Assembly (NCBI RefSeq): GCF_039535095.1
Contig: NZ_BAAAWN010000001.1
Location: 4,774,001-4,838,000 of the forward strand
Source of the DNA: Arthrobacter ramosus
GTDB taxonomy: Bacteria; Actinomycetota; Actinomycetes; Actinomycetales; Micrococcaceae
Reading direction: 5' to 3'
Length of the DNA stretch: 64,000 nucleotides
Within the stretch, counting starts at the first letter, position 1; each line of letters begins with the position of its first letter. Made by a program: the position numbers and the translations under genes. Below, in pieces: positions 20,332-41,612 of this stretch. The notes beneath the pieces were generated by a model, which had not been told where the DNA came from, searched no databases, and saw only the letters and a program-made list of their open reading frames with translations.

Positions 20332-20397
20332 CCCAACTAACCAGCAATTGTTGTCGTTTAGAGGCCTGAAAACGACATTAACTGTTGGCTAGTTGGG
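20332..20397. repeat. 66-bp palindromic intergenic repeat, copy A
   Basis: It begins cccaact and ends agttggg, with the inner motif ttgttgtcgttt facing aaaacgac. The outer stem extends to a perfect 13-bp arm, 20327-20339 with 20390-20402. It lies 23 bases after the hxlA stop. Same length and layout as copies B and C, but the most diverged of the three. Probably also acts as the hxlA terminator. Confidence 0.85.
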
Positions 20398-29563: not shown

Positions 29564-29629
29564 CCCAACTGACTCGCATTTGTTGTCGTTATGAGCCGCC
29601 AAAACGACAACAAGTGCGAGCTAGTTGGG
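29564..29629. repeat. 66-bp palindromic intergenic repeat, copy B
   Basis: It begins cccaact and ends agttggg, with ctcgcatttgttgtcgtt on the left facing aacgacaacaagtgcgag on the right. It differs from copy C at only four of 66 positions. It lies between the convergent sulP and lacI-type genes, 27 bases after one stop and 2 bases after the other, fitting a two-way terminator. Confidence 0.92.
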
Positions 29630-40831: not shown

Positions 40832-41515
40832 ATGCCTGAACCCACCCCCGCTCCCGGCGAGACTAAAGCGCGTCGCAGGGCAGGTCGGCCAATGGCGGCG
40901 GTCCTGGACCAGGACGGCATCACTGCAGCGGCGCTGGAATTGATCAGCAAGAAGGGCTACGACGGGCTCACGATGGCCGCACTCGCGCGCTCCCTGGGTG
41001 TGGCGCCGTCGGCCCTTTACAACCATGTGTCCTCCAAGGATGAAGTCCTCAAGCTTGTGGAAGAGGATCTGATGTCCAAGGTCGACTTCGGCGGTTTCAG
41101 CAAGCTCGCCTGGGAGGAGGCCGTCCGGCAATGGGCATATTCCTACCGCGGCATCTTCGCAAGGCACACCCCGCTGATCTCGGTGATCGCGGTCCTTCCC
41201 GTGACGGACGCCCCACAAACGCTCGCCATGTACGAAGCCGTCACGGAGGGATTCCTCCGCGCGGGTTTCCCGGAGAAGCAGATCATCCCGAGCATCGTGG
41301 CCCTCGAGGCCTACATTTTCGGCGCCGCTTTCGACGCGAACGCGCCGGCGGACATTTTCGATTCCGGCCGCCTGGCCGACTCCACGCCGCACTTTACTTC
41401 GGCGGTCCGCAGCCTGGGACCCGAACGGAACAACTACCCGTCCGATCTCGCGTTCAGCATGGGCTTGGATGCACTGATCACCGGGCTCGGGGCGCTCCGG
41501 ACCCAGCCCAACTGA
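40832..41515 (+). CDS. TetR-family regulator
   Basis: 227 aa. The HTH is GITAAALELISKKGYDGLTMAALARSLGVAPSALYNHVSSKDEVL, residues about 28-70. The C-terminal domain is of the TetR_C type (LITGLGALR). ATG 40832 is set by gaaagg; an upstream in-frame TTG at 40805 would add 9 residues. Divergent from the amine oxidase with an obvious operator between, so it is probably a polyamine- or amine-responsive repressor. Its stop codon lies inside the left arm of the third 66-bp palindrome. Confidence 0.9.
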   Translation: MPEPTPAPGETKARRRAGRPMAAVLDQDGITAAALELISKKGYDGLTMAALARSLGVAPSALYNHVSSKDEVLKLVEEDLMSKVDFGGFSKLAWEEAVRQWAYSYRGIFARHTPLISVIAVLPVTDAPQTLAMYEAVTEGFLRAGFPEKQIIPSIVALEAYIFGAAFDANAPADIFDSGRLADSTPHFTSAVRSLGPERNNYPSDLAFSMGLDALITGLGALRTQPN

Positions 41516-41572
41516 CTCGCATTTGTTGTCGTTATGAGCCGTCATAGCGACAACAAATGCGAGCTAGTTGGG
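41507..41572. repeat. 66-bp palindromic intergenic repeat, copy C
   Basis: It begins cccaact and ends agttggg, with gactcgcatttgttgtcgtt facing gcgacaacaaatgcgag. It is close to copy B (four differences). It overlaps the tetR stop codon and lies between two convergent units, tetR and tRNA-Leu. Confidence 0.92.
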
Positions 41573-41580
41573 TGTTAAAC

Positions 41581-41612
41581 AAAGGAACCCCGGTCAGAGA
41601 CCGGGGTTCCTT
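41581..41612 (-). terminator. Terminator of tRNA-Leu
   Basis: A 14-bp stem from aaggaaccccggtc facing gaccggggttcctt with a 3-nt loop. On the minus strand it is followed by a T-rich run (tttgttt). It lies 9 bases after the tRNA 3' end. Confidence 0.9.

Follow-up and report, generated by a model that had tools for sequence, protein, structure and literature searches.

A genus-wide family of 66-bp palindromes at gene 3′ ends in Arthrobacter, with a possible role as a two-way gene boundary

Three 66-bp palindromes, copies A, B and C, lie at or near the 3′ ends of predicted genes in a 64,000-nt stretch of the Arthrobacter ramosus genome (the window; Table 1), each beginning with CCCAACT and ending with AGTTGGG. 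A palindrome of this length in three copies with conserved arms had been described in the initial annotation of the window, and the description holds: none of 100 dinucleotide shuffles of the window contained a match, and the three palindromes are real, exact and well above chance. Copies B and C are near-perfect and differ from each other at 4 of 66 positions; copy A is the most diverged of the three, with more mismatches between its arms. Folding of either strand gives a strong hairpin for all three, at −31 to −49 kcal/mol (z −6.7 to −12.5). At the gathering score, Rfam returned no family match to the palindromes and, in the window, only a tRNA. The stop codon of the TetR-family gene (TGA, 41513-41515) forms bases 7-9 of copy C. 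The terminator-like hairpin that adjoins copy C is kept in 10 of 10 aligned genomes, including two without the element, so the palindrome is not the sole such signal at this gene end.

Table 1. Positions of the palindromes and of associated features (first four rows, window coordinates; last row, genome coordinates).
Feature	Position	Strand	Context
Copy A	20332..20397		3′ of minus-strand hxlA-like gene, predicted end 20421
Copy B	29564..29629		between convergent gene ends: sulfate-permease/STAS (plus, ends 29536) and LacI-family (minus, predicted end 29632)
Copy C	41507..41572		3′ end of TetR-family gene 40892-41515 (plus)
Terminator-like hairpin AAAGGAACCCCGGTC...GACCGGGGTTCCTT	41581..41612		separate from copy C, adjoins it
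CCCCACCGCCACCC...GGCGGCGTGGGCCC repeat	own genome near 4446433, 4537425, 4561526		also at loci L184, L233, L138, L229, L247 and L248, and at site B of G212 (adjoining the element end)

The complete A. ramosus genome (G000, 5.25 Mb) contains 55 exact CCCAACT-N44-58-AGTTGGG sites, and those among the matches listed are all 66 bp long; the reversed pattern, used as a control, gave none. A covariance model built from 34 own-genome copies, and not tied to a length of 66 bp, found at least 78 distinct places among 150 candidates scored on both strands; 76 of those listed have a length of 66 bp and two a length of 59 bp. The places listed by the model do not include copy A or a copy at 4849784, which bring the total to at least 80. 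The earlier proposal of a dispersed family, as opposed to chance terminators, had been set against a threshold of about five genomic copies and is thus well supported; the family is also tied to gene 3′ ends.

Exact strict arms were found in three of eight genus genomes of one draw (3/149 of the family), with 50, 2 and 3 copies; this exact version is not genus-wide, and the A. ramosus genome is rich in it. Covariance-model matches, by comparison, are present in 204 of 206 genus genomes (E<=0.001), and it is on these and not on the exact arms that we call the family genus-wide; at most 25 candidates were scored per genome, so that the number of matches in each is a lower bound. The record titles of the contig rows listed by a pattern scan (at least 80) name Arthrobacter, Pseudarthrobacter and Paenarthrobacter. 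The two genomes with zero matches, G152 and G332, may carry another sequence version of the element and need not lack it. In the family scan 33 of 149 genomes matched (E<=0.01), and these belong to 13 of 32 genera, own genus included; in the order scan 21 of 248 genomes matched (E<=0.001), eight of them from the own genus. Across the class the core pattern occurred in 8 of 394 genomes, three of the own genus with at least five copies and five others with one, and the reversed control also matched in one genome; we therefore claim nothing beyond the order. Among the best-scoring places in other genera (sets of 40 and 13), the palindromes are mostly near-perfect, 60-68 or 76 bp long, and have arm sequences of their own, with an inner GTCGTT common to several. 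Four of the set of 13 pair poorly as cut, probably because the model ends lie off the dyad. The own genus also has a 60-bp palindrome of the type ATCGA...TGTCGTTTTG and other long palindromes. Long near-perfect palindromes of the types GCGAGCTGGCAGCAGATGACC, ATCGATTGCTGAGTAACTG and GTGAGATCTCGCC were noted in the A. ramosus genome around 4385091, 4389932, 4573833 and 4690320, and have counterparts in G159.

With one own-genome copy as query (E<=0.01), none of 50,697 phage records matched and 2 of 72,556 plasmid records did, both of them megareplicons of one Arthrobacter strain. At this sensitivity the element is almost wholly chromosomal, and a phage or plasmid origin was rejected.

The length of the element is strict. 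Of 204 left half-sites in 1.197 Mb of fetched loci, 201 have a right partner that gives a length of exactly 66 bp, two have one at 67 bp and one is unpaired. This count is biased, since a 66-bp pattern had served to fetch many of the loci. A further 968 kb, from G000 and G159, contained one unpaired strong half-site, of the 60-bp type. Among 191 unique copies, constancy reaches 95% or more at positions 1-7, 11, 13-14 and 22-27 of each half and falls below 80% at positions 8-10, 12, 16, 18-20, 28 and 31-33. Conservation is also periodic along the half, with 10.25 bp the best of the periods from 4 to 16 (permutation p 0.011), in a test that spans only three periods.

The same 191 copies show that the two arms change together. 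Positions 1-7 pair with positions 60-66 in 96-99% of copies, the mean copy has 26.5 pairs, and 17 copies are perfect over 30 pairs. Of the first 30 positions, 17 covary between the arms (p 0.003 to 0.017); for example, position 10 is complementary in 94% of copies against 58% expected, and position 20 in 73% against 34%. Loop positions 31 and 32 show no covariation, and at the central position 33 complementarity falls short of expectation (39% against 48%). For the 34 own-genome copies, 89.9% of cells are paired compared with 87.9% in shuffles, and there are 34 doubly changed cells compared with 23.0, neither value being reached in any of 500 shuffles; doubly changed pairs and further pair types, two of the five covariation measures applied to this set, are not unusual. 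Between the gene-side and far-side arms of 109 copies in tandem gene pairs, no position differs at p<0.05. At site A of one relative, G201, the outermost 28 bases of the two arms are exactly complementary to each other, a base found in 11 of 382 half-sites included, and the left arm differs from that of the other relatives. These exactly complementary arms suggest why the arms of the family agree: they may be kept alike by template switching within the palindrome.

Genes in the fetched loci were called with a simple codon-based caller, which gave 1197 genes covering 85% of the DNA. The 203 places classified comprise 121 in tandem, 59 in convergent and 10 in divergent gaps, four over a predicted gene and nine at a locus edge. 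The initial annotation had placed the element always at gene 3′ ends, which is true of most copies but not of all. Places over a predicted gene are few given how much of the DNA is genic, and copies inside genes at the chance rate, which would have refuted the earlier proposal, were not found. Per gap of at least 60 bp, elements number 121 in 375 tandem, 59 in 95 convergent and 10 in 133 divergent gaps. These rates are inflated, since the loci were fetched for their elements, and the rate per gap tracks the number of gene 3′ ends. Over 235 gene ends, with duplicate loci removed, the median distance from stop codon to element start is 11 bp (quartiles 2 and 20.5), and in 31 of them a stop codon (TGA, TAG or TAA) occupies element bases 7-9 (32 of 239 before removal of four duplicates). 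The leader between stop codon and element is rich in C, at 48.7% in 129 leaders of 8-60 nt compared with 35.6% in the first 15 nt after 314 other stops.

On the scale of the chromosome, 56 of 80 own-genome copies lie in the half centred on 5.0 Mb, an origin guessed from the skew of 20 samples (guesses from 5.15 to 4.85 Mb give 54 to 61 copies), and none of the 80, from a total of at least 80, lies between 0.735 and 1.477 Mb. Both this distribution and the almost wholly chromosomal occurrence would suit a chromosome-organising or gyrase site that lies at gene ends by coincidence. However, such a role does not require a tie to stop codons within a few bases, divergent gaps are avoided, and the origin bias may only track core-gene density; we consider this explanation very improbable.

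Standing copies are under selection. Between G000 and G159, which are 93.1% identical over 381 kb, seven orthologous copies show 3 changes in 224 core cells against 38 in 168 variable cells (Fisher p 2e-12); dropping one pair that was placed by the left flank alone gives 3/192 and 32/144. The comparison takes in intact pairs and excludes three shared sites with one interrupted copy as well as sites lacking flanks. Over the same two genomes, 1373 of 7753 four-fold sites in window genes (17.7%) and 717 of 9718 sites outside predicted genes and elements (7.4%) have changed. The core is therefore held, the variable positions drift at about the four-fold rate, and selection acts on about 16 core bases per half. 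Relative to G000, core changes amount to 25/224 at site A (seven relatives), 5/192 at site B and 8/192 at site C (six relatives each), so that the core constraint is weaker at site A than at B and C.

Most compared copies have been inherited in place. In the syntenic stretches of nine relatives (568 kb), each of the 20 elements has at least one flank that maps to the place of A, B or C. Copy A has orthologues in G201, G159, G190, G169, G212, G192 and G226 (in G192 and G226 it was placed by the left flank, the right flank mapping further off), and copy B in G159, G190, G212 and G192, as well as in G201 and G226 by one flank only. Copy C is intact in G159, G190, G169, G212, G192 and G226, interrupted in G201 and absent from G237.

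Four sites that differ between G000 and G159 (S1-S4) were traced into the relatives. S1 is found in seven of eight further relatives and is absent from G237, and has thus been lost from G000. At S2, G159 and G201 carry identical 66-mers and eight other genomes, G000 among them, carry a different hairpin, flanked in G000 by an A-run and a T-run; this swap suggests that the 66-bp element can stand in for a terminator. S3 is a recent gain in G159 and the only site at which the direction of a gain is clear: neither G000 nor any of the eight others has an element there, most having a short similar sequence, and in G159 about 12 bases are replaced by about 75, with no target duplication. S4 is filled in G000, G212 and G226 and not in G159, G201, G190 or G169, with no flank match in G192, G198 or G237.

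Two lineages stand out for loss. In G198, copy A and S1 are decayed relics, copy C is gone and copy B was not found, one flank being missing, whereas G169 and G226, at similar or greater distance, keep A, C and S1. The decay in G198 is partial, since 21 of 25 candidates scored there still match, the best at 5e-19 compared with 1e-21 to 1e-22 in close relatives. In G237, 66 kb contained no element and 25 candidates scored gave four weak matches. Decay in the one and scarcity in the other are suggestive of a lineage-wide loss of whatever maintains the copies.

Some copies are associated with other repeats. A second repeat of about 60-120 bp with inner hairpins, CCCCACCGCCACCC...GGCGGCGTGGGCCC, accompanies several copies of the 66-bp element, either interrupting one of its arms at about position 10-12 or adjoining its end (Table 1). 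A segment of at least 4.7 kb is present twice, in duplicates that are 99.8% identical and lie about 33 kb from each other across the contig ends (22500-28500, L247; 5240500-5246500, L248), and each duplicate carries a shortened, 59-bp element fused to this second repeat. In the 3′ flank of the own-genome copy at 4646142, the outer end of the element recurs as short tandem repeats (AGCTAGTTGGGTGGGG), and extra outer ends of this kind also occur near copy B and in relatives.

A rival explanation is a miniature mobile element, MITE-like or REP-like with a putative transposase. The 33-bp halves would then be terminal inverted repeats joined directly to each other, with CCCAACT on the outside and TGTCGTT on the inside as transposase contacts, and gene ends would be places that tolerate insertion. 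A dispersed family with co-resident related palindromes (the 60-bp ATCGA type and others), the genus-specific sequences of these palindromes, the filled S3 of G159 and the identical 66-mers at S2 all speak for this explanation. The element does resemble a MITE in having terminal inverted repeats, the whole of it being one inverted repeat, but S3 lacks the expected target-site duplication. Unpaired strong half-sites are nearly absent from the stretches scanned, phage and plasmid records are almost devoid of the element, and the constraint on the core is present in orthologous copies, although that constraint could itself serve mobility and not a host function. Pairs of elements spaced about 1.06 kb from each other might have enclosed an autonomous mobile gene, but this was set aside, as the intervening ORFs look by eye like ordinary host genes. 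A search for the Y1 transposase family (PF01797), positive in 5 of 14 known genomes used as a control, E. coli included, gave no match in the A. ramosus genome and a match in 1 of 61 genomes of the genus. On balance we hold a miniature mobile element to be possible but rather doubtful.

REP sequences are the closest described parallel. GTAG- and CGTC-tagged REPs are presented by Di Nocera et al. (2013, PMC3733652) as dispersed extragenic palindromes of 20-40 bp, located for the most part 3′ of coding regions and in the gaps of tandem or convergent gene pairs; some genomes hold several tagged families, and CGTC REPs apparently lack a dedicated transposase. The 66-bp family resembles them as a many-copied, dispersed extragenic palindrome placed mainly 3′ of genes, with several palindrome families side by side, and shares with the CGTC type the apparent lack of a transposase. 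It differs in being longer and symmetric, in having no unpaired GTAG or CGTC tag (both ends are alike in the 191 copies) and in the near absence of Y1. A REP-like element moved by a RAYT had been proposed for the window: REP-like is fair as a description, and membership of the REP/RAYT system was rejected on length, tag and the missing transposase. A term search of the main text of PMC3733652 found no mention of Arthrobacter, Actinobacteria or Streptomyces. A table of the RepRanger survey (PMC12306157) has a row for Arthrobacter livingstonensis, made up of numbers without headings, in which no family, sequence, length or position is seen. Neither in the passages of these two papers nor among other publications judged by title or the start of the abstract, with subscription papers outside the scope, did we find a description of the 66-bp family. 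Integron attC sites are also palindromic, lie at gene 3′ ends and have outer boxes YYYAAC and GTTRRR, which the CCCAAC and GTTGGG of the element fit. Unlike attC sites, the 66-bp elements are scattered singly and not in cassette arrays, and their arms have no left/right asymmetry; the base before CCCAAC varies among the copies shown.

Alternatively, the palindrome could act once transcribed, as a 3′ hairpin that is either a two-way terminator without a T-tract or a protector of mRNA 3′ ends. The position at gene ends, the strength of the hairpins (mean −43 to −45 kcal/mol), the replacement of a terminator-like hairpin at S2 and the C-rich leader are in keeping with such an RNA device. Rho-independent terminators likewise form hairpins at gene 3′ ends and can be two-way, but the element differs from them in its fixed length, its fixed sequence and the absence of a T-rich stretch after it (T 0.13-0.20 in 5-base bins 3′ of tandem copies), and a separate terminator-like hairpin adjoins copy C. 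A role of structure alone leaves the fixed sequence unexplained, and a stop codon placed at the base of the hairpin, as in the 31 gene ends above, also tells against an RNA device. G.T and A.C mismatches on the transcribed strand are unbiased (111 against 116), a comparison of no demonstrated power, as the T-tailed hairpin control gave 12 against 13. We consider the RNA device unlikely.

Whether elements take the place of ordinary terminators depends on the comparison. In size-matched convergent gaps, T-tailed hairpins occur in 7 of 59 with an element and 10 of 37 without (p 0.097, not significant); a looser convergent comparison gave a significant difference (3/104 beside an element against 18/93 without), and tandem gaps gave none (3/108 against 10/242). 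A general replacement of terminators by the element is not supported by the gap-matched and tandem comparisons. The initial suggestion of a two-way terminator that spreads is possible: the element is symmetric and bound to gene ends, one terminator-like hairpin has been replaced and one copy gained, but no T-tract follows it and copy C has a separate, conserved terminator-like hairpin beside it.

The reading that we prefer, tentatively, is of an old, slowly spreading, genus-wide family of 66-bp REP-like palindromes, about twice the length of REPs and without tag or RAYT, that serves as a two-way boundary at gene ends. The strict length, the symmetric core, the helical period, the selection and the position at gene ends together suggest a two-way, double-stranded site at gene boundaries, and the 10.25-bp period, the covariation of the arms and the lack of a favoured arm suggest the same. 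A putative sequence-specific protein would bind the dyad in its double-stranded form, with contacts along one face for about three helical turns in each half; as a roadblock or insulator, the complex would limit read-through from both sides. New copies would arise rarely. Against a common helical phase, the palindromes of other genera (60 to 76 bp) differ by 3 to 5 bp per half and do not keep to one phase. Where the element starts 0-11 bp after the stop codon or contains it, a block at the outer edge would halt RNA polymerase inside the gene, and a block at the inner core is needed.

More speculatively, and in our view improbable as a whole, a dedicated putative DNA-binding protein may mark gene ends throughout the chromosome in Arthrobacter, in other Micrococcaceae and in some other families of the order, using lineage-specific sequences. 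By occupying the 66-bp dyad directly behind stop codons, it would act in both directions as a roadblock terminator or an insulator, the bacterial equivalent of the protein-based terminators of eukaryotes. In a lineage that lost the protein the copies would be free to decay, as may be the case at two sites of G198 and with the scarcity in G237.

A family that is present in almost all species of a large soil genus, lacks a RAYT and has measurable selection on its core separates what REP-like palindromes do from what moves them. Among close relatives a given site may be filled, empty, swapped or in decay, which provides natural deletions, alongside constructed ones, for tests of function. If the boundary reading is true, bacteria would gain a protein-on-DNA way of ending genes.
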